A stretch of DNA of 64,000 nucleotides. Source: a virus. The stretch spans positions 1 through 64,000 of the IMG/VR virus record IMGVR_UViG_3300020176_000008; one strand, given 5' to 3'. The stretch's first letter is position 1; every line of letters begins with the position of its first letter. The notes under the pieces are model-generated. The model saw only the letters and a list, made by a program, of their open reading frames with translations. It was not told the DNA's origin and searched no databases. Shown here in pieces: positions 8,833 through 63,575 of this stretch. The position numbers were made by a program, and so were the translations under genes.

Positions 8833-8844
8833 TAGGAGTATTTC

Positions 8845-9498
8845 ATGAAACTTATTAGAGAAGTAGTTGAATCCGTAAATTTAATTACGGAAAACAAACT
8901 AGGACAAGAAAAAGAATACTTCATCGAAGGTATTTTTCTTCAATCAGAATTAAAAAACCGTAATGGTCGTATGTACCCAGAGCCTACGATGGATAATGCG
9001 GTTAAGAGTTATGTGGAAAATTACGTTAACCAAAAACGTGCTTATGGTGAATTAGGTCATCCTGATACACCAAGTATCAATCTAGATCGTGTGTCACACA
9101 TTATCACAGATTTGAGAAAAGAAGGTACAAATTGGATTGGTAAAGCTAAAGTACTTGCAACTCCTATGGGACAGATTGCTCGTGGCTTACTAGATGGCGG
9201 TGCTAATCTTGGTGTATCTAGCAGAGCGCTCGGTTCGTTAAAAACCAACAGGGATGGAATACAAGTCGTACAAGACGATTTTGTCCTTTCTACTGCTGCT
9301 GATATTGTCGCTGATCCTTCAGCGCCTGATGCTTTCGTAAGAGGTATCATGGAAGGTCACGAATGGGTTTATGTCGATGGGAAATACGTGGAAAAGCAGA
9401 TAGAACAAACTCGAAAGTTAATCAAAAGTACTTCAACAAAGCACTTGACTGAAGTATCAGCTGTTGCTTTTGAAAAATTCTTGAATTCTTTAAAGTAA
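8845..9498 (+). CDS. 21: Prohead maturation protease (gp21)
   Basis: The 217-residue product (212 in T4) has the conserved YFIEGIFLQSELKNRNGRMYP opening (YIEGIFMQAEVVNRNKRLYP in T4), the GELGHP segment with the catalytic His, and GVSSRALGSL with the catalytic Ser (GVSSRGLGSL in T4). This serine protease cuts prohead proteins after (I/L)-x-E. It is the enzyme expected to process the capsid-targeting leaders seen between 39.7 and 50 kb. AGGAG precedes the start. Confidence 0.96.
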   Translation: MKLIREVVESVNLITENKLGQEKEYFIEGIFLQSELKNRNGRMYPEPTMDNAVKSYVENYVNQKRAYGELGHPDTPSINLDRVSHIITDLRKEGTNWIGKAKVLATPMGQIARGLLDGGANLGVSSRALGSLKTNRDGIQVVQDDFVLSTAADIVADPSAPDAFVRGIMEGHEWVYVDGKYVEKQIEQTRKLIKSTSTKHLTEVSAVAFEKFLNSLK

Positions 9499-9504
9499 TA
9501 AATA
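9497..9504 (+). promoter_or_regulatory. Possible late promoter variant before scaffold gene
   Basis: AATAAATA, one mismatch from the late consensus, overlaps the protease stop and lies 44 bases before the scaffold start. Its overlap with a TAA stop makes chance likely. Confidence 0.3.
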
Positions 9505-9547
9505 ATATTAACACCATTGGATATATCCAATCAATAGGAGATTACAC

Positions 9548-10459
9548 ATGTCAATTGATCAAAAAATCGCTCAGCTAATGGAAGAGTCTGAAAAGCTCCA
9601 GGCTGAAGAGTCACAAGAAGTTGTTGCTGAAGAGGCAACTGAAGAAGTAGTAGCTGAAGAAGCCGCTACGGAAGAGCAAGTTGAAGTTGTTGCTGAAGAA
9701 GCCCAAGAAGAAACCGCTGAGTTATCAGTTGACGTTTCTGCTGACGTTGCTGCTTTAGTTAACGGCGAAGAACTTAGCGAAGAATTTAAAACCAAAGCTG
9801 CTACGATTTTCGAAGCTGCTGTGGTAACTCGTGTTAAGTCAGAAATGGCTAAACTCGAAGAACAGTTTGAAACTCAACTTGCTGAACAAGTTGAAGAAAT
9901 CAAAGATGGGTTAGTTGAAAAAGTTGATGGATATCTCAACTACGTTGTTGAGCAGTGGATGACTGATAATGAAATCGCCCTTGAAAATGGCTTAAAGAAT
10001 GAAATCCTAGAAAGCTTCGTAAGCGGCATGAAGGGTTTGTTCCAAGAGCACTATATCGAAGTACCTGAAGACAAGTTTGACATCTTAGGTGATATGCAGC
10101 AAGAGATTGTTGACATGAAATCTAAGCTAGACGAGCAACTATCTACTAACGTAGATTTGTCCGCCAAGTTGAACCAGATGGTACGAGTTTCTGCAATTGA
10201 TGAAGTTTCTTCACAGTTAGCAGATACAGACGCTGAAAAGTTCAAAGCTTTAGCCGAAGAGTTATCTTTTGAAGACTCTGAAACTTTTAAAACAAAGCTT
10301 GAAACTATCAAAGAAAACTATTTCGGCCAGAAGCAGCAAACTGCCAAAGTTGATACTGTCGTAACTGATGAACCAGTCGAGCAATTAGACGAGAGCGTAA
10401 AAGCTCAAATCGACCCTCGCATGGAAAGATACTTAACAGCGTTTAGGTCATCTAAGTAA
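9548..10459 (+). CDS. 22: Prohead core scaffold (gp22)
   Basis: A 303-residue, highly charged, mostly helical protein with a Glu/Ala/Val-rich N-terminal region (about residues 20-60), where EEVVAEEA-like units repeat. Length (269 in T4), composition and position between protease and capsid genes fit gp22, the main internal scaffold that gp21 degrades during maturation. Several L-x-E or I-x-E tripeptides could be cleavage sites. AGGAG precedes the ATG. Confidence 0.88.
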   Translation: MSIDQKIAQLMEESEKLQAEESQEVVAEEATEEVVAEEAATEEQVEVVAEEAQEETAELSVDVSADVAALVNGEELSEEFKTKAATIFEAAVVTRVKSEMAKLEEQFETQLAEQVEEIKDGLVEKVDGYLNYVVEQWMTDNEIALENGLKNEILESFVSGMKGLFQEHYIEVPEDKFDILGDMQQEIVDMKSKLDEQLSTNVDLSAKLNQMVRVSAIDEVSSQLADTDAEKFKALAEELSFEDSETFKTKLETIKENYFGQKQQTAKVDTVVTDEPVEQLDESVKAQIDPRMERYLTAFRSSK

Positions 10460-10489: not shown

Positions 10490-11734
10490 ATGGCAACACG
10501 TCCAGAATTATTGAAAAAGTGGTCACCAATCCTAGAAGCCGAAGGCGTTTCTAAAATTGGTGACCAATACCGTCGTGAAGTTACCGCTCAACTCTTGGAA
10601 AACCAAGAGCGTGCGATGCATGAAGGTGCTCAGGCACTTTTCGAAACTTCTTCTATCGCTAACCAAGGTGGTGGTTCTATCGCTGGTGGACAAGCTAATG
10701 CAGCTGGTTCAGGCGTTGACGGCTACGATCCAGTTCTAATCAGCTTGGTTCGTCGTGCAGCTCCACAAATGATCGCTTATGACATTTGCGGTGTTCAGCC
10801 AATGACACAACCTACCGGTTTGATCTTCGCAATGAAGAGCCGTTACGAAGACCAAGCAGGTGCTGAAGCATTGTTCAACGAAGCCGATACTGGTTTCGCT
10901 GGTACAGGTGCTCATCCAGCTGGTACTGGTATGTCTACTGCTTCTTCTGAAGACCTAGGCGAGAACGGTACGTTCGGTCAAATGGCTTTCTCAATCGAGC
11001 GTACATCAGTTGTTGCTAAGACACGTGCATTGCGTGCTGAGTACACTGTTGAACTTGCTCAAGACTTGAAGGCTGTTCACGGTCTAGACGCCGAAGGCGA
11101 ATTGAGCAACATTCTCTCAACAGAGATCACCCAAGAAATCAACCGTGAAGTTGTTCGTACAATGTACACAGCTGCTAAAGTTGGTGCACAAAACGGTACA
11201 GCCGTTGCTGGTACATTCAACCTAGACGTTGACTCTAGCGGCCGTTGGTCAGTTGAGAAGTTCAAGGGCTTGATGTTCCAAATCGAACGCGAAGCTAACT
11301 TGATCGCCAAAGAAACACGTCGTGGCCGTGGTAACTTCATCGTTACTTCTGCTGACGTAGCTTCTGCCTTGGCCATGGCCGGCGTGTTGGATTACACTCC
11401 TGCATTGTCTACTGGCTTGAACGTTGACGAGTCTTCAACAACCTTCGCTGGTGTGTTGAACGGCAAGTACAAAGTGTATGTTGACCCATACTTCAGCACA
11501 ACTGCTGCTGACCAATTCTTCTTGGTTGGTTACAAGGGTACTTCTGCATTCGACGCTGGTATGTTCTACTGCCCGTACGTTCCATTGGAGAAAGTTCGTG
11601 CTATCGATCCAGCTACGTTCCAGCCAAAGATTGGCTTCAAGACTCGCTACGGTATGGTTGCAAACCCATTCACTAGCTTGTCAGCTGGCGCTAACGTTTA
11701 CTACCGCAAGGTAACAGTTACTAACTTGATGTAA
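10490..11734 (+). CDS. 23: Major capsid protein (gp23)
   Basis: An HK97-fold capsid protein. The N-terminus ELLKKWSPILEAEG parallels ELLNKWKPLLEGEG of T4. Other shared segments are VRRAAPQMIAYDICGVQPMTQPTG, ELAQDLKAVHGLDAEGELS and the C-terminal GFKTRYGMVANPF. LFE at residues 50-52 fits the gp21 rule (I/L)-x-E, so the mature chain probably starts at T53 (T4 cuts after E65). At 414 residues it is about 100 shorter than T4 gp23, because the region corresponding to the T4 insertion domain is strongly reduced. Codon use is unusually C-ending and G-rich compared with neighbours, as expected of the most highly expressed gene. Confidence 0.98.
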   Translation: MATRPELLKKWSPILEAEGVSKIGDQYRREVTAQLLENQERAMHEGAQALFETSSIANQGGGSIAGGQANAAGSGVDGYDPVLISLVRRAAPQMIAYDICGVQPMTQPTGLIFAMKSRYEDQAGAEALFNEADTGFAGTGAHPAGTGMSTASSEDLGENGTFGQMAFSIERTSVVAKTRALRAEYTVELAQDLKAVHGLDAEGELSNILSTEITQEINREVVRTMYTAAKVGAQNGTAVAGTFNLDVDSSGRWSVEKFKGLMFQIEREANLIAKETRRGRGNFIVTSADVASALAMAGVLDYTPALSTGLNVDESSTTFAGVLNGKYKVYVDPYFSTTAADQFFLVGYKGTSAFDAGMFYCPYVPLEKVRAIDPATFQPKIGFKTRYGMVANPFTSLSAGANVYYRKVTVTNLM

Positions 11735-38973: not shown

Positions 38974-38978
38974 ACTCA

Positions 38979-39001
38979 GGGACCACTAGGTCCCTTTTTT
39001 T
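38979..39001 (+). terminator. Terminator ending the modified-base operon
   Basis: Stem GGGACC / GGTCCC with ACTA loop followed by seven Ts. Confidence 0.93.
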
Positions 39002-39008
39002 ATAAATA
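39001..39008 (+). promoter_or_regulatory. Late promoter butted to the terminator
   Basis: Exact TATAAATA sharing its first T with the terminator T run; 27 bases before the next start. Confidence 0.85.
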
Positions 39009-39034: not shown

Positions 39035-39778
39035 ATGGCCGCTCAACAAGGCTTCCAATACGAAATAAATGCAAGTAATATGCTTAAACCAATGGGCTTC
39101 GTGCCTAAATCGTTTAAGCCTGCAGGCGCTGGTCATGACCAGCCTGACTTAATGCTCTTGCATAAAAAGAAAGAAGCCGGGTGTGAGCTTAAGATTACTG
39201 CTGCATCAGCAGGTTCATTGGTCATAAAATACGATTCTAAAGATAAGAGAAACCCTTGGAAGTTCGGTGATATTAAAGCCGACGAGGATGAGAAAAGGTT
39301 CATTGCTGATCTTGCTAAAGAGGTTAAGTTGTTTGACCTTATCAAAAAGCAATGGAAAGAAAAACCGTATAAAAGAGATAAAGACGTTGAATGGAATGCA
39401 ACTGCTGGTAAGATGACTCCTAAACAAAGATATGAAAGAGATCGTGATACCTTTGCCGATATCCGTGGTGAAATTCCTGCAACGAAAATAGAGCAGTATT
39501 ATAATCGTAAAGATACACACTATGTCAATGTTGGCACGCATGGTTTCTATTTAATGGGAAAGGCAAACCCTCTGAAATTAAAAGGTGTTCCTACATTCGG
39601 TGCTTCTGCAAAGGCTACGTATAGAGCCCGTGTTCAATACAAGGGCTCTGGAAATTATCAGTTTACGTTTGAAATGCAATTTAGTATGAAATCTAAATCT
39701 CCATACAACATTGCTCCAGTTGATGGAAAGAGCGTTACTATTTTAAAAGATAAATTAAACCTGGGATGTTTTGTATAA
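39035..39778 (+). CDS. PD-(D/E)XK nuclease-like late protein
   Basis: A 247-residue, Lys-rich protein. HDQPDLMLLHKKKEAGCELKI gives P-D ... E-L-K, the PD-(D/E)XK core, near residue 45. A second part (HYVNVGTHGFYLMGK, then GNYQFTFEMQFSM) is beta-rich. It is expressed from a late promoter, unusual for a host-degrading nuclease, so it may act in packaging or be carried in the virion. It has no capsid-targeting leader. The stop directly abuts the next ATG. Confidence 0.5.
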   Translation: MAAQQGFQYEINASNMLKPMGFVPKSFKPAGAGHDQPDLMLLHKKKEAGCELKITAASAGSLVIKYDSKDKRNPWKFGDIKADEDEKRFIADLAKEVKLFDLIKKQWKEKPYKRDKDVEWNATAGKMTPKQRYERDRDTFADIRGEIPATKIEQYYNRKDTHYVNVGTHGFYLMGKANPLKLKGVPTFGASAKATYRARVQYKGSGNYQFTFEMQFSMKSKSPYNIAPVDGKSVTILKDKLNLGCFV

Positions 39779-40729
39779 ATGAAAAACTTTATAGACTTTT
39801 TAACTGAAGCCTCTGGTAGTTCTTCTAATGAACACTTTGGCGTTGCATATGAAACTGCAACAGCGATGCATTTGCATCATATGACTGGTTCTAAGACTAA
39901 CAACGATCCAGAACATAAAAAACGAATGCAAGAGATTGGATCGAAGGGTAAAGCTGCTTTTGACAAGCTTCCTGATCATCTAAAGAGTCGTGCTTTGCAA
40001 TCAGCTAAAGCATCCGCCGAGTCTTATATTGAAAGTCTTAAAAAGAATCACAAGATTAATCCTGCTGATATTCATGAAGTTCATCATACTTCAAAGGGAA
40101 TCGATCATTTGATTAATGCTAAAGCTGATCGTATTCAAAACCCGCATGACGTTGTTGTTAAGACTAAAGATGGAAAACTACATGGAGCGTCTTTAAAGGC
40201 AACGCAAGGTACTCTAAGTAATAACGGTATCGGTACTTTCGACAGTCAGAATAAAGGTCATATTAAAACTGAGGTTGGCTCTATATGGGCAAAAGGTAAA
40301 AAGAAAGCCGGCTTAGAAGGCAAGAGCGGAGCAGAAATTAAAGCCGTACGTAATGATCCTAAAGTAAAAGCTGCAAATAAAGAAACACAGGCAGAGGCTG
40401 CAGCACACCATAGTAAACAGTTCAACAAGGCTTCTATTGAAGATCAACGTAAGCATCTACGTTATATTATGAAATCTGAAAAACCTGCAGTACCATATGA
40501 CTACGTCAATGGAGAAAAGAACAAGTCAGTTCCTAGCCATCAACTTGATCACGCTCAAGCTATTGAGAAGTCTAAGAAGTTTGAAATGCGTCATACCGCC
40601 GGAAGTAATCTAGTTAAGATCCACGACGACGAAGGTAGACACGTGGCAACAGTTGAACACAGACCGACTCATGGTGCATTCTCTGGAGTACAAGTTAATA
40701 CTAAAATTGGTACTATGAAGGCAAGTTAA
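39779..40729 (+). CDS. Capsid-targeted protein with nuclease-like core
   Basis: A 316-residue basic protein. The N-terminus MKNFIDFLTEA aligns without gaps with the T4 internal-protein leader MKTYQEFIAEA, with the gp21 cleavage tripeptide L-T-E at 8-10. The passenger is His/Lys-rich; HDVVVKTKDGKLHGASLKAT resembles a PD-(D/E)XK strand pair with S-L-K. It is therefore a candidate packaged and injected DNA-acting protein. Co-transcribed with the gene before it. Confidence 0.6.
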   Translation: MKNFIDFLTEASGSSSNEHFGVAYETATAMHLHHMTGSKTNNDPEHKKRMQEIGSKGKAAFDKLPDHLKSRALQSAKASAESYIESLKKNHKINPADIHEVHHTSKGIDHLINAKADRIQNPHDVVVKTKDGKLHGASLKATQGTLSNNGIGTFDSQNKGHIKTEVGSIWAKGKKKAGLEGKSGAEIKAVRNDPKVKAANKETQAEAAAHHSKQFNKASIEDQRKHLRYIMKSEKPAVPYDYVNGEKNKSVPSHQLDHAQAIEKSKKFEMRHTAGSNLVKIHDDEGRHVATVEHRPTHGAFSGVQVNTKIGTMKAS

Positions 40730-40773
40730 TACTTTAGTATTATATGTACAACAAATCGAAGATATGGTATAAT
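40727..40773 (+). promoter_or_regulatory. ATGTAC-box promoter, member 5
   Basis: TAATACTTTAGTATT box overlapping the previous stop codon, ATGTAC at 40744-40749, 18-base spacer and TATAAT at 40768-40773; the next ATG lies nine bases after the -10, leaving almost no leader. Confidence 0.8.
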
Positions 40774-40781
40774 ATTAATAT

Positions 40782-42014
40782 ATGTTAAAGCTTAAAGAAT
40801 TCATCGCCGAAGAAAAGAACACCCACATGGAACACGTTGAGGATATGATCTTCAATGAAGGAGTTGAGGGTGCACGTAAATCTATTTTATTCTTACGCGA
40901 TCTTCGCGACATGTTAGCCGGCAGTTCTACATCTAAAGTTACTGCAACGGTAAAATGGGATGGTGCTCCGGCCGTTTTTGCTGGCGTAGATCCAAGAGAT
41001 GGTAAATTCTTTGTTGCAAAGAAAGGCGTATTCAATAAATCGCCTAAGGTATATAAGACTGCGGCAGAAATTGATGCAGATACTTCGGGAGATCTTGCGG
41101 CAAAATTAAAGATCGCATTGATAGAATTCTCAAAGTTGGGCGTAAAAGAAGGTGTGTTCCAAGGTGATTTGATGTTCACCAAGAACGATCTTAAGAAAGA
41201 AAATATCGATGGACAGGATTATATAACCTTCCATCCAAATACTATTGTCTATGCTGTTCCGTATAATAGTGAACTAGGCAAGAAGATTAGAGGTTCAAAG
41301 ATCGGTGTTGTTTGGCATACGACGTATTCCGGAAAAACATTCGAGACTATGAAAGCAAGTTTTGGTAAAACTATAGTTGACAAGTTAAACGAGGTCCAAT
41401 CCGTTTGGATGGACGATGCTAATTATAGAGATTATTCTGGCACAGCGACGTTCACGAAAGCTGAGACAGATAGAGTCACTGCAGTTTTATCGAGTGCCGG
41501 GAAGTTATTTGGGTCAATCAGCGCGCAAACCCTAAACGCAATCTCACGAGATGCAGATCTATTAGCTGCTGTGAAGACCTACAATAACTCCAAAGTTCGT
41601 AATGCAGAAAAAATCACAAACACAAAAGCACACGTAGAAGGTCTATACCATTATATCTATGACAGGTATCAGGGTATGATTGACCGTAGAAAGACAGAAG
41701 CTGGAAAAAATAAACAAGAAGACGCTCGCAAGAAAGTTCTTCAGTTCTTTGCCCATCACGACAAGAATCAGATTGTAGCCATATTCGATTTGATGAATCT
41801 GATTGTTGAAGCCAAACAGATGATTATCGATAAGATGAATAAAGCTGGTCACATAAATACTTTCTTAAGGACTGCAAACGGTTTTAAAGTAACTGGAGTC
41901 GAAGGATTCGTTGCAATAGACCACCTATCTGGCGGTGCAGTTAAAATTGTAGATCGTATGGAATTTAGTAAAGCTAACTTTTCAGCTGATATTATCAAGG
42001 GATGGCAGAGATGA
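40782..42014 (+). CDS. Ligase-fold nucleotidyltransferase with capsid-targeting leader (DUF6267 type)
   Basis: A 410-residue protein. After the leader MLKLKEFIAEE (cleavage I-A-E at 8-10) it shows the covalent nucleotidyltransferase motifs in order: motif I K-W-D-G (K58-G61) in TVKWDGAPAVF, a FQGDLMF motif near 130, VEGFVAI (motif IV-like) and VKIVDR (motif V-like) near the end. This is the DUF6267 family of T4-like marine phages. It may be a nucleic-acid ligase or capping-type enzyme. Promoter context is early or middle rather than late, odd for a packaged protein. Confidence 0.75.
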   Translation: MLKLKEFIAEEKNTHMEHVEDMIFNEGVEGARKSILFLRDLRDMLAGSSTSKVTATVKWDGAPAVFAGVDPRDGKFFVAKKGVFNKSPKVYKTAAEIDADTSGDLAAKLKIALIEFSKLGVKEGVFQGDLMFTKNDLKKENIDGQDYITFHPNTIVYAVPYNSELGKKIRGSKIGVVWHTTYSGKTFETMKASFGKTIVDKLNEVQSVWMDDANYRDYSGTATFTKAETDRVTAVLSSAGKLFGSISAQTLNAISRDADLLAAVKTYNNSKVRNAEKITNTKAHVEGLYHYIYDRYQGMIDRRKTEAGKNKQEDARKKVLQFFAHHDKNQIVAIFDLMNLIVEAKQMIIDKMNKAGHINTFLRTANGFKVTGVEGFVAIDHLSGGAVKIVDRMEFSKANFSADIIKGWQR

Positions 42015-42271
42015 TTAGGTATGATCAATTTAAACAAAGGCTATCTGAAGCAAAGAATCCCGATGATAAGATTGTTGCTCAATTAGAAACTTTAAGTAAA
42101 AATATTTCAAAATATGCGCACCGTTGGAATGATAATCCAAGTTCGCGTATGTATAAGTGGGTCGATACATATAACGACTTAAAAGAAAAACACAGACACG
42201 GCGCTTGGGTCACGTATTGTAAAAAACATGGATTTTCCTTAGGTCATGACGCTTACGATAACTTAGCATAG
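42011..42271 (+). CDS. Small protein with capsid-targeting-like leader
   Basis: An 86-residue protein. The ATG at 42011 overlaps the previous stop (ATGA). MIRYDQFKQRLSEA contains L-S-E at 11-13, fitting the gp21 rule. The rest is basic and aromatic-rich (YAHRWNDNPSSRMYKWVDTYNDLKEKHRHGAW). Family unknown. Confidence 0.6.
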   Translation: MIRYDQFKQRLSEAKNPDDKIVAQLETLSKNISKYAHRWNDNPSSRMYKWVDTYNDLKEKHRHGAWVTYCKKHGFSLGHDAYDNLA

Positions 42272-42280
42272 GATATTACG

Positions 42281-42718
42281 ATGATTACATTTAAAGAATA
42301 TTTACAAGAAGAAAAAAATGGCCTATGGGCCAATATCCATGCTAAACGCAAACGTATTAAAGCTGGTTCCAATGAAAAGATGCGTAAGCCAGGATCTAAA
42401 GGAGCTCCGACCGATGCCGATTTTAAATCAGCAAACGAGGAATCAGAAATTGGTGAAGCGGCTATCGATGCTAAAGGGCATAAGTCTTCTACCGGTGGAT
42501 TGACACAAAAAGGCGTTGATGCTTTTCGTAGAGAGAACCCAGGCAGTAAACTACAAACTGCAGTAACTACGAAACCATCTAAAATGGATCCTGATAGTAA
42601 GGATGCTAAACGTAGAAAATCTTTCTGTGCCCGTATGAGCGGCGTTGAAGGTCCTATGAAGGACGAGAACGGTAAACCAACACGTAAAGCACTTGCTCTT
42701 AAGAAGTGGAATTGTTAA
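42281..42718 (+). CDS. Basic capsid-targeted protein (DUF6321 type)
   Basis: A 145-residue Lys-rich protein. The leader MITFKEYLQEE has L-Q-E at 8-10. The C-terminal half, GLTQKGVDAFRRENPGSKLQTAV followed by DAKRRKSFCARMSGVEGPMK, is the DUF6321 pattern found in many phages. Probably a DNA-associated head protein. Confidence 0.7.
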   Translation: MITFKEYLQEEKNGLWANIHAKRKRIKAGSNEKMRKPGSKGAPTDADFKSANEESEIGEAAIDAKGHKSSTGGLTQKGVDAFRRENPGSKLQTAVTTKPSKMDPDSKDAKRRKSFCARMSGVEGPMKDENGKPTRKALALKKWNC

Positions 42719-44256
42719 TGAGCGAATTAAATGACTTCTTGAAACTGATTTCTGAAGCTAAGGCCCAAGATCCTAAGCATCAGAAAATTAAAGAGATTAA
42801 GGAAACTGTTAGAGAAGACGTTAATGACTTCTTTGCACAGTTGGCTTCTGCGTCTCCAAAACACTTTGAAATTGAAAAAGAAGAAATCGATGAGCTAGTT
42901 GAAAAAATCGAAGCTATAGAGCAGATCGAACAAGATATTATCCAGGAAGAAATTCCAGAAATTAAAAGTGAAGCTGATAAACAGGCAGAAGTACTTAGCT
43001 TGCTTAAAAAGCAGCCTGATGCTGTACCATTCTCACAGCCCAATCCAGAACCCACATCTAAAGATATTAAAGCTATCACCGATAAAATTAAGTTCATGGA
43101 ACAATGGCTAGGAAAAATAACTGCCACTGGTCCAGGTTCAGGCGAAGTTAACTTTAGATATTTGGATGACGTTGAGCGTTCAACGATGACATCTGGTAAT
43201 GATAATTGGGTGCTCGAATACGATGCTGCTTCAAAGAAAGTACAATTCACCAAAGATATTGGTCCAATAGATTCTGTTCAATTTGATGTTACTCATGAAG
43301 ATGATAATACACATGGTGAGGGAACTCTCACCTGGAATAATTTTGATCGCACATTAAATTTGCATCATAAAAACAGTGTTAGGCAACAAATTGGTCAAGA
43401 ACAATATTACCCGCCAGTTAAAAACATAACAGGTTCAACCATTACGAATGGTACGTTGGTTATGTTTGCTGGTGCAGAATCTGATAATAATGCAAGACTT
43501 CTAATTACTCCTATGATTGCCAATGGCACGTACCCAAGTCTTTATGTTATGGGTATAACGACAGAAGACATAGTAAATGGAGAGACTGGGTTTGTAACAG
43601 CATTTGGTTACGTCAATGATGTTGACACTTCCATGTGGGAAGAAGGGGATATTCTTTATGCAAATCCTTTAGTTCCAGGTGGTTTAACAAATATAAAGCC
43701 AACAGCGCCAAATAATGTTATCCCTGTTGCAGCGGTTGTGCATAAAGATGCCGTTATTGGTCGAATCATAGTTCGTCCTACTGTCGAACAGGAGATGCAG
43801 TATGCTAGATTCTCTTCAGAGATCGACCAACATCCATTAACCGTCGATACTGCTTATCCAATTACATTTGGGGTTACTGACATCTCTCGTGGATTCCATG
43901 CCGATGGAGAAACTATTCCTGATTATTCAAAGATTTATACAGAAGAATCAGGTTTCTTTAAGTTTGATGTAACTATTTCTTTGACTTCGACTAACGCGGC
44001 TGCTAAGGCATTCTATGTATGGATGAGAAAGAACGGAGTTGACATTCCTCGTTCAGCAAAGCGTCAGTCTATAACAGGCAACGGAGTATATCAGCTTTTG
44101 GCTTATACGCTTTCAGTTAGTCTTGCAAAGGATGATTACATTCAAATCATGTATGCAGCTTCTGATACTGCTATTATAATTGATGCACCTGACGTAACAG
44201 CATTCAGTCCTGCTATTCCTTCAGCAACGATAACTTGTACACAGATAGCACTATGA
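42718..44256 (+). CDS. Large fibre-like or head-associated structural protein
   Basis: A 512-residue protein; the ATG at 42718 overlaps the previous stop (TAATG), and a GTG at 42706 is rejected. The N-terminus MSELNDFLKLISEA holds I-S-E at 11-13. A Glu/Lys coiled coil (to about 105) follows, then beta-rich repeats (FRYLDDVERSTMTSGNDNWVLEYD), a GTLVMFAGAESD segment as in fibre heads, and a C-terminal C1q/TNF-like jelly-roll (YVWMRKNGVDIPRSAKR). Possibly a fibre or a head-surface protein. Confidence 0.6.
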   Translation: MSELNDFLKLISEAKAQDPKHQKIKEIKETVREDVNDFFAQLASASPKHFEIEKEEIDELVEKIEAIEQIEQDIIQEEIPEIKSEADKQAEVLSLLKKQPDAVPFSQPNPEPTSKDIKAITDKIKFMEQWLGKITATGPGSGEVNFRYLDDVERSTMTSGNDNWVLEYDAASKKVQFTKDIGPIDSVQFDVTHEDDNTHGEGTLTWNNFDRTLNLHHKNSVRQQIGQEQYYPPVKNITGSTITNGTLVMFAGAESDNNARLLITPMIANGTYPSLYVMGITTEDIVNGETGFVTAFGYVNDVDTSMWEEGDILYANPLVPGGLTNIKPTAPNNVIPVAAVVHKDAVIGRIIVRPTVEQEMQYARFSSEIDQHPLTVDTAYPITFGVTDISRGFHADGETIPDYSKIYTEESGFFKFDVTISLTSTNAAAKAFYVWMRKNGVDIPRSAKRQSITGNGVYQLLAYTLSVSLAKDDYIQIMYAASDTAIIIDAPDVTAFSPAIPSATITCTQIAL

Positions 44257-44268
44257 ATATTTAAGTCA

Positions 44269-44276
44269 TATAAATA
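44269..44276 (+). promoter_or_regulatory. Late promoter
   Basis: Exact TATAAATA in the gap before the nucleotidyltransferase fusion gene, 30 bases before its ATG. Confidence 0.8.
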
Positions 44277-44306
44277 ATACATATTACTTATTATAGATGG
44301 ATAAAA

Positions 44307-45950
44307 ATGAAAAGATATAAGCAACTCATAAAAGAATTGCCGTCAAAAAAGGTTGTGTTCGCATTCGGCAGGTTTCAGCCTCCGACGAATGGTCACGCAC
44401 TTTTAGTCAATGCGGTAACTAAGTTGGCATCTGCTCAGAAGGCAGATCATGTCATTTACACATCCCGTACTCAAGACAAAAAATCAAATCCACTTCCAGC
44501 TAACCGCAAGGTATATTATCTTAAGCGGATGTTTCCCCATGCCAAATTCATGGCGGCAACCGATAACATGCGCACATTCATGGAAGTGGCTGCCGAGTTA
44601 TCTAAGAAGTATAAGCATCTCGTAATGATTGCTGGCTCGGATAGAGTTGCTGAATATAAGAAACTATTAGATAAGTATAACGGAACCACATTCAACTTTG
44701 AAACTATCGAAGTTGTTTCTGCCGGAGAGCGTGATCCAGACTCGGATACTGCATCGGGAATGTCTGGTACTAAGATGCGTGAAGCTGCCAAGAAAGGTAA
44801 CTTTGCCGCGTTTAAGAAAGGTCTGCCACATGGTATTACTGAGTTAGATGCTAAACGTCTAATGAATGAAATCCGTGAAGGTATGGGTATCGATGCTATT
44901 AAAGAATCTATCCAGTTCGAAAGAGATACAATTAGAGAATCATACCATTCTGGCAATATCTTCAACGTAGGAGATAAGGTACTATTTGAGGAGCAGGTAT
45001 GCGAGATCGTGAAACGTGGATCTAACCATGTTTTAATCCAATTGCAGGATGGGTCATTGGAAAGTAAATGGCTAAATCAAGTACAAGTATTTGAAGATGT
45101 GGCACAAGAAGTCACCGAGGAAATAAACGAAATGAAATATACCGCATCTGACAAAATTAAAGTCGCAAGAGTAATTGCAATGTCTCTCGGCTTAGAAGAA
45201 CCTACTAGTAATAATCCGGAACTTCTTGTCAATACTGCATTACGTAGAATCAAGAATAAGACATTTTCTGCCCGCGGAAAAGAAATCGTTGCCAACATGC
45301 TAGATGTTGCAAAAGAAGCCGGAATCAAATATGATGAGAAGCTTGCCGTGGCATTTAAGCAATCTGAGGTAGATGAAGAAGTTGTTGGAAAGTCATTGCA
45401 CTGCGGTGATAATTCAGTGCGCGTCTTGAAAATTAAGCATCATCTTGGAGAAGAAGCAGATGATGATGAAGAAGAGGAAGAAATGTCCGACGATGATTTG
45501 GATAAAGTAGCCGATTCAATGAATGACGATCATATGCTTCACGGATATGACGACGAAGAATTAGATATCATCGATGACGAAACTGGCGAGAAGGTCGACG
45601 AACTCAAAGAAGAAACTTTGAATGAAGTATTAAGCCGTCAAGAAAGAATCAAGTCTAAGATCAGGTTTGCTCGTACCAAGAGTAAGCGTGAACGTAGATT
45701 GCGAATCGCATTAAAAACTAGATCGTCTGTTAAGAAGGTAAATACTAGAGCTAGACGATTAGCAGTTAAAGCTTTAAAGATGCGAATTGCTAAAAGACCT
45801 TTAAACAAATTGTCTGTCGGTGAAAAAGAAAGACTAGAAAAAATAGTACAAAAGCGTAAATCTGTTATCAATAGATTAGCTATGCGTATGGTACCTAAAG
45901 TACGCAAGTATGAAAACGATCGTTTGGTTCATAGTACTTATACTAAATAA
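44307..45950 (+). CDS. NMN adenylyltransferase-like domain fused to acidic and basic tails, capsid-targeted
   Basis: A 547-residue fusion. MKRYKQLIKEL resembles the capsid leader (I-K-E at 8-10). Residues 21-30, GRFQPPTNGH, are the (T/H)-x-G-H motif of cytidylyl/NMN-adenylyl transferases, with SGMSGTKMREA as the ISGTxIR-type motif near 148. A KOW/SH3-like strand region (about 215-250) and a highly acidic linker (about 380-430) follow, then a strongly basic C-terminus (about 445-547) rich in Arg/Lys. Similar fusions exist in T4-like marine phages. It may be packaged with the DNA and act on NAD or nucleotides after injection. Confidence 0.7.
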   Translation: MKRYKQLIKELPSKKVVFAFGRFQPPTNGHALLVNAVTKLASAQKADHVIYTSRTQDKKSNPLPANRKVYYLKRMFPHAKFMAATDNMRTFMEVAAELSKKYKHLVMIAGSDRVAEYKKLLDKYNGTTFNFETIEVVSAGERDPDSDTASGMSGTKMREAAKKGNFAAFKKGLPHGITELDAKRLMNEIREGMGIDAIKESIQFERDTIRESYHSGNIFNVGDKVLFEEQVCEIVKRGSNHVLIQLQDGSLESKWLNQVQVFEDVAQEVTEEINEMKYTASDKIKVARVIAMSLGLEEPTSNNPELLVNTALRRIKNKTFSARGKEIVANMLDVAKEAGIKYDEKLAVAFKQSEVDEEVVGKSLHCGDNSVRVLKIKHHLGEEADDDEEEEEMSDDDLDKVADSMNDDHMLHGYDDEELDIIDDETGEKVDELKEETLNEVLSRQERIKSKIRFARTKSKRERRLRIALKTRSSVKKVNTRARRLAVKALKMRIAKRPLNKLSVGEKERLEKIVQKRKSVINRLAMRMVPKVRKYENDRLVHSTYTK

Positions 45951-45971
45951 GTATCCAGAGATACATTATAC
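45951..45971 (+). repeat. 21-base hairpin repeat, copy 3
   Basis: GTATC-CAGA-GATAC plus ATTATAC, starting one base after the stop codon and 37 bases before the dps start. Identical to copy 2. Confidence 0.8.
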
Positions 45972-46007
45972 CAAACATACAGAATTAAACTTCGATCGGA
46001 TTAAAAT

Positions 46008-46463
46008 ATGGACGAATTAACAAAATCACTTAACAAATGTCTGGCAAATACGTTCATAATGTATTTCAAAACACATTCATACCATTGGAATGTGGAAGGT
46101 ATTCACTTTAGTCAGTATCATAAATTCTTCGGTGATCTATACGAAGAAGTCCATGGTGCCGTAGACACTATTGCAGAAAAGATTCGTATCGAAGGTCCAT
46201 ATGCTCCAATTAGTCTGAGCGAATTGTATAATAATGCTACACTAGAAGAAGACAAAGAAAAGCCACAGACGTGTTACGCCATGGTTGTTAGCACATATGC
46301 TGCAAATGCATCTGTTATTGGTTGTTTACAAGAAGCGTTTGATATGGCTAATCAAATGAACAAACAAGGACTTGCTGATTTCTTGGCAGGTCGTTTAGAT
46401 ATCCATAAGAAGCACGAATGGATGCTTCGTGTTTCAATGAAGTTAAATGAAGGGGAAATGTAA
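46008..46463 (+). CDS. dps: Dps/ferritin-like protein
   Basis: A 151-residue four-helix protein. THSYHWNVEGIHFSQYHKFFGDLYEEVHGAVDTIAEKIR holds the Dps ferroxidase ligands: H26, H38, D53 and E57, aligned to H51, H63, D78 and E82 of E. coli Dps. In bacteria Dps oxidises iron and coats DNA. In a phage it may protect the genome from oxidative damage. It lies in a late structural block and is followed after one base by the next gene. Confidence 0.88.
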   Translation: MDELTKSLNKCLANTFIMYFKTHSYHWNVEGIHFSQYHKFFGDLYEEVHGAVDTIAEKIRIEGPYAPISLSELYNNATLEEDKEKPQTCYAMVVSTYAANASVIGCLQEAFDMANQMNKQGLADFLAGRLDIHKKHEWMLRVSMKLNEGEM

Positions 46464-46464
46464 A

Positions 46465-47316
46465 ATGAATTTTAAACAATTTTCAGAACAGAAGTTAAAA
46501 GGCAATCAACATAAGCTTGATAAAAACGGCAATGGTAAACTAGATGCTGATGATTTTAAAAAATTACAAGCTGAAGAAAATGATGAAAACGCCAACGATG
46601 TAGTTGATACTTCAGATTTTAAATTAGATAAAAACGGTAAAAAATATAAAGCCGGCAAGATCGTTTTTAAGCACGGCGAGGACGACGGCAAGAATAATAT
46701 GTCTGAAGCTGCAGAAGAAATGTCTGACGCGGAAATGAAAAAACGTGAAGACTATGTCAAAGGCATGAAAAAGAATTATAAATCATTCGTTGACAAATAT
46801 GGCAAAGATCGTGCAAAAAATATCATGTATGCTACTGCTACCAAGATGGCTATGAAAGAAGATCAGGTAGAAGAAGGCTGGGATGACATGCAAAAGATGG
46901 TTAAGAAGAATGCTGAAAAGCAAAAGACTTCTACCATGACTAAGCATGATATTAAGAAAACAGACACTGGTACCGTTTATACTAAACAACGTGATCCAGA
47001 TGGCATGAGCAAAGAGTTCAAGAGAGATAACTCCGAAGTTAAGCGCGGGCGTGGCCGTCCTAAAAAGAACCAATTTGCTGAAGCACTAGAATTTTTAATG
47101 GACCTTACAGAAGAGCAATTCGACCAGGTAGTTGAAGAAGGACTCGATTCTTTCGTTGAATCATATATCGACGAAGGCAAGGGTTATGCTCCAGGTTGGA
47201 TGATCAACGCCGATCCTGAGCTCAAGAAAAAATTAGATGCCAAAAAAGCTAAACAGAAAGCTATGAAAGCATCTATGGGTAATCCTAACGCTGGTAAACC
47301 AGCAAGCAATAAATAA
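46465..47316 (+). CDS. EF-hand and AT-hook containing virion-like protein
   Basis: A 283-residue protein from the ATG at 46465 with GGGGA upstream. MNFKQFSEQKLKG recalls, in shorter form, the capsid leader. DKNGNGKLDADD (about 18-29) is a full EF-hand loop, and a degenerate second one follows (LDKNGKKYKAG). GMKKNYKSFVDKYGKDRAKNIMYATATKMA is a motif shared by marine phage structural proteins, and KRGRGRPKK is an AT-hook. Likely head-associated and DNA-binding; Ca2+ binding is predicted only. Confidence 0.65.
   Translation: MNFKQFSEQKLKGNQHKLDKNGNGKLDADDFKKLQAEENDENANDVVDTSDFKLDKNGKKYKAGKIVFKHGEDDGKNNMSEAAEEMSDAEMKKREDYVKGMKKNYKSFVDKYGKDRAKNIMYATATKMAMKEDQVEEGWDDMQKMVKKNAEKQKTSTMTKHDIKKTDTGTVYTKQRDPDGMSKEFKRDNSEVKRGRGRPKKNQFAEALEFLMDLTEEQFDQVVEEGLDSFVESYIDEGKGYAPGWMINADPELKKKLDAKKAKQKAMKASMGNPNAGKPASNK
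47308..47315 (+). promoter_or_regulatory. Possible late promoter variant
   Basis: AATAAATA overlapping the previous stop codon, 30 bases before the next ATG; one mismatch to consensus. Confidence 0.3.
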
Positions 47317-47344
47317 GTATAACATTCCAAATAAGGAGAATAAA

Positions 47345-47926
47345 ATGGCACTATGGACAAATAAAGACGAGGAAGCTGGTAAGCCAAAGTACTTGTCAGA
47401 CGCCGATAAGGCAAATACATACGGCGCTGATGCCGCCGAGACTGCCGCCACGCCCGGTGTGACTGCAGGTTGGGTTCTAAAAACTGAAGGTACCGGCGGT
47501 CGTGCTGGTCGTGTTACATATGAAACAATGGTCGCAATGGGTTCAATGAGTACTGATGGTGATTCAGTACTTACTACACAGACACGCACTATTACTATTA
47601 GCGGTCAACCGGCTAATGTATCTGCCGTTCTAGGCGATGAAGAGACAGTTGCATTCTCAGTAACAGCATCAGTTTCACCTGCAAGTTCTTCAACATTAGT
47701 ATACGCATGGGAATTCTCTGAAAACGGTGGTTCTACATGGGATGATGCACAACCAGAATGGGCAACAGGATTTAATACTGCTGAAATCACCATCGCTAAT
47801 GCTGATGTCGATCTAGGCGGCGGCGCTGGCGATCTAAATGGATATCAGTTCCGTTGTGTAGTTTCTACTGACGGCGCCTCTGATGTAACTTCTGATGCTG
47901 CTACACTAACTGTAGCTACACCTTAA
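47345..47926 (+). CDS. Virion surface protein with Ig-like domain
   Basis: A 193-residue protein after AAGGAG. The N-terminal 75 residues (MALWTNKDEEAGKPKYLSDA, then GWVLKTEGTGGRAGRVTYETMVAMG) are a module common in T4-like marine phage structural proteins. The C-terminal half (about 80-193) reads as one Ig-like beta-sandwich, with YAWEFSENGGSTWDD and YQFRCVVSTDGASDVTSD. Probably head decoration. Confidence 0.7.
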   Translation: MALWTNKDEEAGKPKYLSDADKANTYGADAAETAATPGVTAGWVLKTEGTGGRAGRVTYETMVAMGSMSTDGDSVLTTQTRTITISGQPANVSAVLGDEETVAFSVTASVSPASSSTLVYAWEFSENGGSTWDDAQPEWATGFNTAEITIANADVDLGGGAGDLNGYQFRCVVSTDGASDVTSDAATLTVATP

Positions 47927-47932
47927 TTAAAT

Positions 47933-47949
47933 GCGGGTTAACTACCCGC
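47933..47949 (+). terminator. Hairpin after the Ig-like gene
   Basis: GCGGGT / ACCCGC stem with TAACT loop; the tail GTATATT is T-poor, so it is a weak terminator or an mRNA end-protecting hairpin. Confidence 0.6.
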
Positions 47950-47956
47950 GTATATT

Positions 47957-48313
47957 ATGAATTTTAAATTGACTGATGACAACTTCATCCTGTATGCTAT
48001 GAAGCACTATGATAATACACAGTGCCATAGTGTACAGGAATTTGAAGAAGATTTACGAAGGTTTCTCTATTTGAAGAAACTTTTCAGGCGGTATTCGGAG
48101 GGCGAACTTAGAGAGCGATTGATTCTAAACCATCTAATAGTATTGTATAATATTTTTGGAGAGTGTTTAAATGAAATGCTGCTATTCAAAGTCGACAAAG
48201 AACACTGGCCGGCATTAAAGACTTTCATGGTATACTTAGGTAGACTAGAAGAGTCGGAACTAACAGACGTCACTTTAGATCAGAACATAGTAAGTATATT
48301 AAGGAAAATTTAA
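47957..48313 (+). CDS. Conserved phage protein, probably structural accessory
   Basis: A 118-residue helical protein: ILYAMKHYDNTQCHSVQEFEEDLRRFLYLKKLFRRY and LRERLILNHLIVLYNIFG. I recognise it as a type of small protein common in T4-like marine phages (DUF7207-like), without known function. Its stop overlaps the next start by one base. Confidence 0.6.
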   Translation: MNFKLTDDNFILYAMKHYDNTQCHSVQEFEEDLRRFLYLKKLFRRYSEGELRERLILNHLIVLYNIFGECLNEMLLFKVDKEHWPALKTFMVYLGRLEESELTDVTLDQNIVSILRKI

Positions 48314-48858
48314 TGAATTCCACAACTGACAATTTAATTGCATTCAGGGTCTTATATATGTTGGTCACTCCATTTGAGAAGACTGATGCGTATAAGTTCG
48401 GAATCATCGACAAAGATGGTAATGCGTTAAAGAAGGTTAAAGATTTAGATGACTCTGAAGAAAGAGATTCGTATACTGCGTTACATAGATTAGTTTTTAA
48501 TCTTAAAAAATTATTAGGTAAAGTTCCAGGTGGAAAAACTAAGTTTGCTTCTGTAATGGCAGCATATTGGTTGATTAAAGAAAATCTAAATGTACGTACA
48601 TCAATTAAAGAACATGAGTTGATTGAAACTATTCATGCAATAGAATCTAAAAACTTATGCATGGTTGAAGAAGAATTGGATTTTGCTGATTTAATAAAAA
48701 ATATTGACCCACTTGAAGAAGATGCTGTAGCAGCTATCGCTAATGTGGTTGGTGATGGCACTGCTACATCTGTTGATTATCCAGCAATAAAACCTAAGAA
48801 AAAGAAAACCCTAAAATTATTCCGCAGACAGAAGGATGGAGAATATGAAAAAGTTTAA
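48313..48858 (+). CDS. Conserved phage protein, unknown
   Basis: A 181-residue protein with VLYMLVTPFEKTDAYKFGIIDKDGN, ALHRLVFNLKKLLGKVPGGKTKFAS and a basic C-terminal tail (PKKKKTLKLFRRQ). The pattern is familiar from marine T4-like phages, where it sits beside the preceding gene. Two Phe/Leu-rich helices but no clear membrane span. Function unknown. Confidence 0.6.
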   Translation: MNSTTDNLIAFRVLYMLVTPFEKTDAYKFGIIDKDGNALKKVKDLDDSEERDSYTALHRLVFNLKKLLGKVPGGKTKFASVMAAYWLIKENLNVRTSIKEHELIETIHAIESKNLCMVEEELDFADLIKNIDPLEEDAVAAIANVVGDGTATSVDYPAIKPKKKKTLKLFRRQKDGEYEKV

Positions 48859-50056
48859 TCAATTTATGACAGAAGCTATTGCCGAATCGGATGCTGCGTG
48901 GGCTGCCGCTGAAGCAAAGCGCAAGGAGCAAGAAGCCAAAAAAGCTTTAACTAAAAAGGATGCTAGCACTGTCGACAAGATTCGTGCTATGATGGCTAAA
49001 GAGAAAATGAAGGAAGAAGTCGAGATTGAAGAAGCAAATACTCCTTCTGATGCTGATTTACATAAGACGCTTGGCCCTACCAAGAATATGCAGCAAGGAG
49101 TTGATGCTTTAAAGAAAAAGCATGGAATGTCTGATGATGAGGCTAAAAAACATGTTCGTAGATTGATGGGTATGAAAGAAGAAGCTGATCAGATTGACGA
49201 GTTAAGCAAAGGTACATTGCGTTCTTACATAGATAAGAAGTCGGATGATCATGAGTCCAATAGACAGGGTGTGATTGATGCACGTGATGCTCTACGCCAG
49301 CACAACAGGAACAGACCTTCCCTTGATGCACCTCTTAAACATCAATTTGACCATGACGCTAAGAAACGTGAACTAGAGAAAGATGTCAATGCTGCATCAA
49401 GAACTGCTACACGTTCAAATGTAAACATTCTTAAAGCAAAGAAACGTTTGAATAAAGAAGAAGTTACAATGAATGAAGCAAAAGACAAACAAGAGTATGG
49501 CTACGAAGGTGCCATGGCTATGACTCAATTAAAGACATTAACCCGTCATGGTGAACATATGATGGGTATGATGAAAGAAGATACAGATCTTCCGGAATGG
49601 GTTCAGTCAAAGATTACTCTAGCAACTGACTATGTTCAAACCGCTCATGATTATTTAATGAGCGAAATGAATGAAGAGCTGTCAAAATCAGCAGAACAAA
49701 TTGATGAATTGAGCAAGTCTACATTAGGTTCATACGTTAGAAAAGCATCCGGCAATGCGGCATCTGCTACTCGTGCTGCTGGCGTAGAAGCTGGTGCACG
49801 AGGACCAAACCGGTTTGCTAATATGGACTCTAAAGAAAAACGTGCTGAAAAGAGACTAAGTGGTGTATCTAAAGCAGTTGATCGTTTGGCTAAAGAAGAT
49901 ATGCATACTGATAAGAAGGAAGATCCTCCTTTTGATGGTCCATATTCTAAAAAGAAAGTTGCTACTCCAGGTAAACAGGGTTATGGCATGTCAGCAGCTC
50001 GTCATCTAGCACGTCAAGCTTTACAAAAAGTTGCAGACAAACAAAAGAATAAGTAA
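48845..50056 (+). CDS. Multi-segment capsid-targeted protein
   Basis: A 403-residue protein. The ATG at 48845 gives MKKFNQFMTEA, which matches the capsid leader in spacing (M-T-E at 8-10); the ATG at 48836 is an alternative. Inside are two copies of a short motif, QIDELSKGTLRSYIDK and QIDELSKSTLGSYVRK, about 175 residues apart, a helical block YGYEGAMAMTQLKTLTRHGEHM through TAHDYLMSEM, and many I/L-x-E sites. It may be a polyprotein cut by gp21 into head peptides. Confidence 0.6.
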   Translation: MKKFNQFMTEAIAESDAAWAAAEAKRKEQEAKKALTKKDASTVDKIRAMMAKEKMKEEVEIEEANTPSDADLHKTLGPTKNMQQGVDALKKKHGMSDDEAKKHVRRLMGMKEEADQIDELSKGTLRSYIDKKSDDHESNRQGVIDARDALRQHNRNRPSLDAPLKHQFDHDAKKRELEKDVNAASRTATRSNVNILKAKKRLNKEEVTMNEAKDKQEYGYEGAMAMTQLKTLTRHGEHMMGMMKEDTDLPEWVQSKITLATDYVQTAHDYLMSEMNEELSKSAEQIDELSKSTLGSYVRKASGNAASATRAAGVEAGARGPNRFANMDSKEKRAEKRLSGVSKAVDRLAKEDMHTDKKEDPPFDGPYSKKKVATPGKQGYGMSAARHLARQALQKVADKQKNK

Positions 50057-50526
50057 TGGGAATCACTGCAGCTATCCGTGCTATCGCTATTCTTGTAATA
50101 GTCGTTATCATAGCGGCGGCAGGTTGGTATGTAACATCTCTCAAGGCCGATCTTGCGGTTAGCCTTGAGAATACCAAGAAAATGACCGATGCCGTTCAGG
50201 CACAACAAGAGTTAATCACGCAAATACGTATAGAGCAAGAAGCTATTAGTAAGATTAATAGTGAACTAACCGGCGTGATTAAAGCACAACAAGAAGATAT
50301 GAATTCCTTACGTGATAGGTTCAACACCTCTGCGGATGGAAGCAAGCGTGATTTTGGAAAACTAGCTGCAGAAAAACCTGCACTGGTAGAAAAATCTATT
50401 AATACTGGAACCAAGAATGCTTTACGATGTATAGAGTTAGCATCTGGTTCACCTTTGACTGAAGGCGAGAAAAATGGCACTGAGACTAATAAGGAATGTC
50501 CTTCTTTACTCACTAGTAGTAACTAG
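50056..50526 (+). CDS. Probable inner-membrane spanin (Rz-like)
   Basis: A 156-residue protein with one N-terminal membrane helix (about residues 6-26, IRAIAILVIVVIIAAAGWYV), then a long Gln/Glu coiled coil (about 35-100) and a Pro/Ser-containing end. The next gene starts within it in another frame and encodes a lipoprotein, the classic Rz/Rz1 arrangement. It would span the periplasm at lysis. One-base overlap with the gene before it. Confidence 0.6.
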   Translation: MGITAAIRAIAILVIVVIIAAAGWYVTSLKADLAVSLENTKKMTDAVQAQQELITQIRIEQEAISKINSELTGVIKAQQEDMNSLRDRFNTSADGSKRDFGKLAAEKPALVEKSINTGTKNALRCIELASGSPLTEGEKNGTETNKECPSLLTSSN

Positions 50527-50869
50527 CAGCGGTTGTGCATTCTTGCCATCTTTTGGTAAAGAAAATATTAAACCGGTAGAGATACAAACTAAGGCAGTCG
50601 ATAAGACTCCTCTCAACATTGATAATCCTTTACCTATAAATACTAATACAATCAAGTGGTTGATTGTAACACCTGACAATGTAAATGAAGCTTTTGCTAA
50701 TTTAGAAGGCAATAAAGTATTATTCGCTATAACGGATGACGGTTATCAGGATCTATCGATGTTGATGGCAGAAATTAGAAATTTCATTAACGCTCAACGC
50801 GTTATAATAATCAAGTATAAAGAATACTACGAGCCTAAAGCGGGGATTCAAGATGGCGTTGGAAACTGA
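50474..50869 (+). CDS. Probable outer-membrane lipoprotein spanin (Rz1-like)
   Basis: A 131-residue protein with a short basic start, hydrophobic signal and lipobox-like SSGC (Cys21). The mature part has PLNIDNPLPINTN, with Pro residues as in Rz1, followed by a mixed domain ending MLMAEIRNFINAQRVIIIKYKEYYEP. It is longer than most Rz1 proteins. Overlap with the Rz-like gene supports the pairing. Confidence 0.6.
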   Translation: MALRLIRNVLLYSLVVTSSGCAFLPSFGKENIKPVEIQTKAVDKTPLNIDNPLPINTNTIKWLIVTPDNVNEAFANLEGNKVLFAITDDGYQDLSMLMAEIRNFINAQRVIIIKYKEYYEPKAGIQDGVGN

Positions 50870-63151: not shown

Positions 63152-63364
63152 ATGTACACATTAAAAGCTGTGGCGCAGCACAATGCCGAATTCATCAATT
63201 CATTTGTTGATCTTAAAGTAGAAGGCTGGAAAGCTTTCGAAAAAGCATTCAACGCATATACCTACTCTTTCTATAAAGATCAGATTGCTAAAGGCGGAGA
63301 AGTTGTTCAAAAAACAGCTGATATCGTTAAGCAAATCAATAAAGGAGTAGTCGATCATGTCTAA
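63152..63364 (+). CDS. Small phasin-like protein 1
   Basis: A 70-residue helical protein after AAGGAGG. HNAEFINSFVDLKVEGWKAFEKAFNAYTYSFYKDQI has the amphipathic Phe/Ala/Lys pattern of phasins, which coat polyhydroxyalkanoate granules. It overlaps the next gene by eight bases. Similarity is by pattern only. Confidence 0.6.
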   Translation: MYTLKAVAQHNAEFINSFVDLKVEGWKAFEKAFNAYTYSFYKDQIAKGGEVVQKTADIVKQINKGVVDHV

Positions 63365-63575
63365 AAATCCCTTCGAAATCCGCTCTGAAATGCTTCATAT
63401 GGCTAAAGACTACATGGACAAACAGTGGGAAATGAACTATGTGTTCACCCAGCAAATGTTTGAACAAGGTAAGAAAACAGCCGAAGAAATGCAGGCTGCT
63501 TTGGCACCTTATTCGACCGATGAATTGATGAAAAAGGCTACGGAATTTTATTCTTTCGTATCTAAGAAAGACTAA
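63357..63575 (+). CDS. Small phasin-like protein 2
   Basis: A 72-residue helical protein with AAAGGAG before it. NPFEIRSEMLHMAKDYMDKQWEMN resembles a small protein common in marine T4-like phages; the Met/Gln-rich helix fits a phasin-type or scaffold coat. Probably paired with the preceding protein. Confidence 0.65.
   Translation: MSKNPFEIRSEMLHMAKDYMDKQWEMNYVFTQQMFEQGKKTAEEMQAALAPYSTDELMKKATEFYSFVSKKD

Follow-up and report, generated by a model that had tools for sequence, protein, structure and literature searches.

The stretch of DNA analysed here (the window, 64,000 nucleotides) comprises bases 1-64000 of the 102,519-base IMG/VR virus record IMGVR_UViG_3300020176_000008, and by its sequence the source virus is a T4-like phage. 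At 39779-50056 it carries a cluster of 13 genes, five of which encode proteins that begin with a ten-residue leader resembling the capsid-targeting sequence of the T4 internal proteins IPI, IPII and IPIII (Mullaney and Black 1996, reviewed in PMC9026906). In the T4 record, IPII and IPIII both begin MKTYQEFIAEA and IPI begins MKTFKEFTSTTTPVSTITEA. An earlier note on this DNA had listed seven N-termini of this kind, all of which exist as written, and we confirmed its observation that five of them align without gaps with the IPIII leader, with (I/L/M)-x-E at residues 8-10. These five candidate cargo genes, named here by their first position, and their leaders are as follows (lengths in amino acids, aa; scores from the leader profile described below).

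39779..40729, + strand: cargo 1, putative PD-(D/E)xK-type nuclease, 316 aa (invariant residues, structure matches)
39779..39808, + strand: leader MKNFIDFLTE of 39779 (N-terminus MKNFIDFLTEA), profile score 14.2, above 99.9% of the null
40782..42014, + strand: cargo 2, DUF6267 protein, 410 aa (PF19782, E 5e-109)
40782..40811, + strand: leader MLKLKEFIAE of 40782 (N-terminus MLKLKEFIAEE), Glu10 invariant in 40 aligned sequences
42281..42718, + strand: cargo 3, DUF6321 protein with leader, 145 aa (PF19846, E 1.4e-23)
44307..45950, + strand: cargo 4, NMNAT/cytidylyltransferase-like enzyme, 547 aa (PF01467; PHROG 3041, E 6.8e-74)
44307..44336, + strand: leader MKRYKQLIKE of 44307 (N-terminus MKRYKQLIKEL), profile score 23.2
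48845..50056, + strand: cargo 5, Lys-rich protein, 403 aa (weak PHROG 5709 match)
48845..48874, + strand: leader MKKFNQFMTE of 48845 (N-terminus MKKFNQFMTEA; internal ATG of open reading frame (ORF) 48836), profile score 18.5

The leader of 42281 (MITFKEYLQE; N-terminus MITFKEYLQEE) scored 23.4. We observed that leaders of this type are concentrated in the cluster. The pattern [FYLIMV][ILMV]xE, with Glu at residues 9-12, was present in 5/13 genes in 39779-50056 and in 0/144 elsewhere in the 102,519-base record (Fisher p = 1.7e-6), and shuffled N-termini gave a mean of 0.33 matches and a maximum of 3. A wider expression (Glu at 9-17) was set aside, since 8/144 genes outside the cluster match it too. 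The gapless T4 pattern (hydrophobic at 4, 7 and 8; Glu at 10) was found in 5 of 148 ORFs, all five inside the cluster. Among internal methionines of 13 phage genomes, used as a null, it occurs in 22 of 10,452 (0.21%), which corresponds to about 0.3 expected matches. The earlier note had proposed a profile search of this genome and its relatives. Using a profile built from 80 leaders of environmental relatives, with this phage and T4 left out, we found that the leader is enriched in the cluster: exactly the five cargo genes lay above 99.9% of the null (scores 14 to 23), and the next gene scored -0.01.

Mutagenesis of the T4 leader assigned targeting to residues 4 and 7 and processing to residues 8 and 10 (PMC9026906). 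The five leaders agree with those of T4 IPII and IPIII at 4, 7, 8 and 10, the positions that this work showed to be important. In a codon-level comparison of 28 DUF6267 leaders, residue 4 was Leu or Phe (Ser in one), residue 7 was Phe, Tyr, His or Ile, and residue 8 was Ile or Leu; residues 2, 3, 6 and 9 varied, with up to 14 codons. Because Glu10 is invariant beside these drifting neighbours, selection on the leader is needed to explain its retention. One relative (L025) has a longer leader, MRTLKGFIKQLDEEKN, with LDE directly ahead of the conserved domain, and the leader of 44307 is kept in homologues as distant as 49-56% identity.

Across 80 related loci the leader was found on several unrelated families. 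Single-linkage clustering joined 42281, 44307 and 48836 through shared domains and left 39779, 40782 and the 44307 group as separate clusters, so that the leader is shared while the mature parts fall in distinct families. Some members of the 39779 family start directly with MATANTVLSDINEI, and another, L024, reads MKTFREFILE-MATANTVLSDINEI, with the leader prefixed; the presence of leaderless and leader-prefixed members in one family indicates gain or loss of the leader as a whole. When IMG/VR was scanned at the DNA level with the back-translated leader, at least 120 stretches were returned. Among the matches listed, 121/124 start ORFs of at least 40 aa, which fall in 48 families, and 110/120 stretches carry T4-like genes. 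The complete scan with a permuted pattern returned 34 stretches in total, 11 of them with T4-like genes; the comparison of total matches is a lower bound, the leader scan being at least 120 stretches. Among the matches listed, the NMNAT family formed a sequence cluster of 43 members; other leader-bearing products were a 5'-deoxyribonucleotidase-like protein (PHROG 2643, 1e-21), an HD-type phosphohydrolase (PF13328, 4e-16), a protein with a DPBB lytic transglycosylase domain (3e-12) and, by weak matches, ADP-ribosyltransferase-like proteins. In L288, the gene at 1223-1783 on the minus strand encodes an HD-domain phosphohydrolase (PF13328) with the leader MKTFKKFISED; it is possibly of the alarmone-degrading kind and may be a head-packaged anti-alarmone enzyme.

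The head-assembly genes relevant to such leaders are present in the window and lie in order, 3' of terminase-, sheath-, tube- and portal-like genes:

8845..9498, + strand: gp21-type prohead core protease, predicted to process the leaders (PHROG 207 head maturation protease, E 5.7e-74)
9548..10459, + strand: gp22-like prohead scaffold, predicted to form the core that the leaders bind (PHROG 237 head scaffolding protein, E 2.2e-82)
10490..11734, + strand: gp23-like major capsid protein, with (L/F)xE kept at the T4 gp23 processing site (LFE/T, the slash marking the cut)

Protease 8845 is 40% identical to T4 gp21 (E 1.7e-28) and shares with it the blocks GEL(G/N)HP (GELGHP/GELNHP) and GVSSRxxGS. 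At the gp23 processing site, (L/F)xE is conserved in 13/13 aligned genomes, a conservation that reaches T4. Since both the gp21 blocks and the gp23 site are conserved, the sites support a T4-type cleavage specificity for protease 8845. A further record, longer at 136,533 bases, holds the same cargo locus and a protease identical to 8845. A megablast search with the cluster region found nothing among isolated phages. Judged by DUF6267, Methylophilales phage Melnitz and Stenotrophomonas phage DLP6 are among the nearest cultured relatives.

Candidate signals for late expression also lie at the locus:

38978..38995, + strand: intrinsic terminator closing the preceding unit (7-bp stem and T run)
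39001..39008, + strand: TATAAATA, T4-type late-promoter core, 34 bp ahead of gene 39035, the first of the unit
44269..44276, + strand: TATAAATA, T4-type late-promoter core, 38 bp ahead of 44307

The same core lies 34 bp ahead of the gene two upstream of DUF6267 in one relative (G002), and ahead of the 44307 homologue, at the same distance as here, in another (G003). The window holds ten exact matches, every one of them on the coding strand; by count they are not above chance. With the core at comparable distances upstream of genes of this locus both here and in relatives, the cargo may well be made late, together with the heads, as packaging needs.

To relate the leader to packaging, we compared it with published virion proteomes of relatives. 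For S-CREM2, 52 proteins are reported from CsCl-purified virions (PMC10665884). The four S-CREM2 proteins with a leader, gp6 (SAM hydrolase/SAM lyase, MKDFDSFLEE), gp13 (MKDLHSFLTE), gp14 (APH-like kinase, MKRFDAFLTE) and gp154 (cytidylyltransferase, MKNFSSFLTE), were all among those detected (4/4, PMC10665884), for which p is about 0.003 given 52 of about 221 (hypergeometric). The profile test by itself gave 3/3 detected (p = 0.011), gp14 (profile score 9.6) having been missed by the simple ORF caller. Leader-bearing orthologues of the cytidylyltransferase/NMNAT (T4-GC190) were likewise detected in virions of S-SM1 (MKKFSAFLNEA; PMC3037559), S-SCSM1 (MKSFLQFLKEA; PMC9602691) and S-SZBM1 (MRFRQFIIEA; PMC9146016), and are thus present in the virions of four cyanophages. 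The DUF6267 protein that adjoins the S-SZBM1 enzyme is without a leader and is absent from the list of detected proteins (PMC9146016). S-PM2 has a leaderless DUF6267-cytidylyltransferase fusion, and T4-GC190 is absent from its virion list; this is suggestive, but as a single case from another laboratory it was not counted. A further S-CREM2 virion protein, the Cas9-annotated gp12 (7704-10313, minus strand, in L203), starts MTSRW and contains RFASFMAE/A, with RFASFMAE at residues 18-25. Correcting its start site to bring this stretch to the N terminus fails because the Leu before it is encoded by CTG.

The profile trained on relatives transferred to T4 itself. Over 275 T4 ORFs it ranked gp61.1, IPIII, IPII and IPI first to fourth and gp24 sixth, and only gp61.1, IPIII and IPII exceeded 99.9% of the null. 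gp21 is known to process IPI-III and gp24. The product of gp61.1 (T4 NC_000866 18966-19130, minus strand; L378), a hypothetical protein of 54 aa, starts MKTFKEFIKEDMVAGD and outscores IPII and IPIII; its N terminus suggests that it may be an overlooked internal protein.

We consider it very probable that the five leaders act as T4-type capsid-targeting sequences and load their cargo into the prohead. Late in infection, the ten N-terminal residues would bind the growing prohead core, formed by the gp22-like scaffold 9548, through the hydrophobic residues 4 and 7, and the attached protein would be carried inside the prohead. By analogy with T4, the gp21-type protease 8845 would then cut after Glu10 at [ILM]-x-E and free the cargo; the cut leader peptide would leave the head, and the cargo (the nuclease-like, DUF6267, DUF6321, NMNAT-like and Lys-rich proteins) would stay in the mature head, probably to enter the host with the DNA. 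The T4 precedent would predict that the leader is cut and the cargo injected, to act at once in the host; the copy number of the cargo and its role in the host are likewise inferences. The agreement at the key positions, the portability of the leader, the gp21-type protease with its gp23 site, the late-promoter motifs and the virion proteomes of relatives together lend this reading strong support. The earlier note is thereby upheld in its central proposal, a T4-type capsid-targeting leader on a head-packaged set of proteins; two further leaders and a ligase fold that it proposed found no support, as described below. We also think it likely, with less assurance, that the T4 leader is a general, portable head-cargo address carried by dozens of unrelated proteins in T4-like phages of aquatic bacteria. 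Its range would take in NMNAT, SAM hydrolase/lyase, APH-like kinase, HD-type phosphohydrolase, ADP-ribosyltransferase-like, 5'-deoxyribonucleotidase and nuclease-like proteins and the Cas9-annotated protein of S-CREM2.

Several observations weigh against packaging by the leader. The simple leader expression is also matched by UvsX/RecA N-termini in some relatives, so that on its own it yields false positives; these recurrent matches include 165372-166442 of G004:C1 and 86844-87857 of S-SZBM1 (MDFLKTIVKELDNEYA and MSFLNDVVKEIGNEYA), and the S-SZBM1 N terminus has a low profile score. Leaders are few or absent at this locus in HTVC008M and S-PM2. S-SZBM1_191 has a perfect leader (MKSFKSFLSES) yet is absent from the mass-spectrometry list of that phage. 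The S-CREM2 authors considered contamination of virion preparations by abundant proteins possible, as against packaging (PMC10665884); the leader favours packaging as the answer to their question. Mature N-termini are not reported in the accessible virion data of relatives, and virion presence was measured in those relatives, whereas this phage is known from sequence alone.

Other explanations of the shared N-termini were also considered. The leader could target the prohead while the cargo acts there, in core assembly or DNA condensation, and is not delivered as an effector. T4 IPIII influences head assembly (PMC9026906), several cargoes are Lys-rich, and 48845 is without a recognisable catalytic domain, all of which would fit. 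We nevertheless regard this as unlikely, as three of the five cargoes look enzymatic (the NMNAT-like, nuclease-like and KxDG proteins) and the leader-bearing set varies from phage to phage, unlike core assembly proteins. The common N terminus could instead be a docking helix for some other late complex (polymerase, replication or tail assembly) and not a head address. Short amphipathic N-termini have many docking roles, and cleavage here is extrapolated from T4. Against this reading stand the match to the T4 capsid-targeting sequence at mutagenised positions, the strict Glu at the protease P1 site and the leader-bearing enzymes found in purified virions, and we give it only a slight probability.

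Least of all do we expect the resemblance to be due to chance or to descent from one duplicated ancestor, with the leader itself functionless. The joining of 42281, 44307 and 48836 by single linkage might suggest common ancestry, but 39779, 40782 and the 44307 group cluster separately. The null rate of the gapless pattern speaks against chance, and both the invariance of Glu10 and the gain or loss of the leader within one family speak against a functionless stretch. Capsid targeting of the cargo by the leader remains our preferred explanation.

The identities of the cargo were examined individually. In the 39779 family, E25, D124, S138 and K140 (SxK) are invariant in 21 aligned sequences. The predicted structure best matched Cas4-type nucleases (probability 0.87, weak E 0.016), and the leading PDB matches were mostly PD-(D/E)xK nucleases with weak E-values; by these residues and matches, 39779 is a putative PD-(D/E)xK-type nuclease. 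The protein directly upstream (39035-39778), which is without a leader, has a PD...ExK-like stretch (PDLMLLHKKKEAGCELK). In the DUF6267 protein 40782, K58-W-D60-G61 (a KxDG nucleotide-binding motif) is invariant in the alignment, and in its moderately confident model the leader residues 1-15 have a pLDDT below 50. Profile and fold searches of DUF6267 against the PDB gave no match at E <=0.001, RNA ligases appearing at E 2.6-4.2; the ligase fold proposed in the earlier note, to which the KxDG motif points, was therefore not recovered by fold. For the NMNAT/cytidylyltransferase-like assignment of 44307, PF01467 matched at 25.5 bits against a cut-off of 21, and GRFQPPTNGH fits the motif GxFxPPxxGH. 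Matches of 44307 to NMNAT models (E 0.002-0.008) stayed below the cut-off. The 48845 protein had no match in Pfam.

The two further leaders of the earlier note, with the cleavage tripeptide at residues 11-13, have the sequences it described, but neither scores above 99.9% of the null:

42011..42271, + strand: 86-aa protein with a possible but weak IPI-like leader, MIRYDQFKQRLSE (profile score -3.6, below threshold)
42718..44256, + strand: large protein, leader claim unsupported (profile score -8.8)

The N terminus of 42011, MIRYDQFKQRLSEA, starts at an internal ATG of ORF 42002, and the one homologue found lies in a record whose sequence is identical across this locus. That of 42718, MSELNDFLKLISEA, starts at an internal ATG of ORF 42706; here a leader was rejected because of the score and because Asp occupies the proposed cleavage site in some homologues. 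Gene 46447 (MNFKQFSEQK) was also rejected, as it is without [ILM]xE, even though MKSYKEIAEALKG occurs in a relative. Its product (46447-47316) is a charged protein with an EF-hand-like stretch (DKNGNGKLDADDF), and an IAE leader is present in relative G005 and not here. The cluster also contains a leaderless Dps-like ferritin gene (46008-46463) that is kept in many relatives. Downstream, at 50056-50869, two small genes overlap; one product has an N-terminal membrane segment, the other is lipoprotein-like, and together they resemble a spanin pair (Rz/Rz1). At 63152-63575, two adjacent small genes with phasin-like products follow a TATAAATA motif at 63088.

The likeness to the T4 internal proteins extends to the ten-residue leader with hydrophobic residues 4 and 7, [ILM]xE at 8-10, a gp21 protease and unrelated mature parts. 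The T4 proteins are small (95-193 aa), whereas the cargo here spans 145-547 aa and looks mostly enzymatic, and the two phages are distant, their proteases being 40% identical. T4 Alt, a head-packaged ADP-ribosyltransferase, is likewise an enzyme that gp21 processes and that is injected along with the DNA (PMC9026906), but has a 7-residue propeptide, unlike the ten-residue leaders here; we identified no Alt homologue within the window. The virion NMNAT/cytidylyltransferase of cyanophages (T4-GC190; S-CREM2, S-SCSM1, S-SZBM1, S-SM1) belongs to the same family and has the same leader, and DUF6267 adjoins it in several phages. In their accessible portions, the papers on these enzymes measured virion presence and named no packaging signal; here the leader is recognised from sequence. 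Polyvalent proteins and other injected effectors (Iyer et al. 2017, PMC5512222) are also head-carried enzymes used at entry, but polyvalent proteins are multidomain chains (PMC5512222), whereas here separate genes have a common, predicted cleavable address tag. We found no description of the leader in marine or cyanobacterial T4-like phages in the literature, subscription journals and preprints lying outside the search.

With this finding, the known T4 mechanism reaches another part of the T4-like phages and cargo that is larger and looks mostly enzymatic. Because all three T4 internal proteins are injected inhibitors of host restriction systems (PMC12373910), the cargo proteins are candidate counter-defence and takeover proteins of uncultured phages, and an NMNAT among them would fit NAD+ as a battleground between phage and host. 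The tag lets genome sequence alone predict which enzymes a phage probably carries in its head. It also makes the choice between packaging and contamination directly testable for the NMNAT, SAM hydrolase and kinases found in cyanophage virions. If the leader is indeed a general address, reading it in metagenomes would list the likely injected effectors of a major group of marine viruses.

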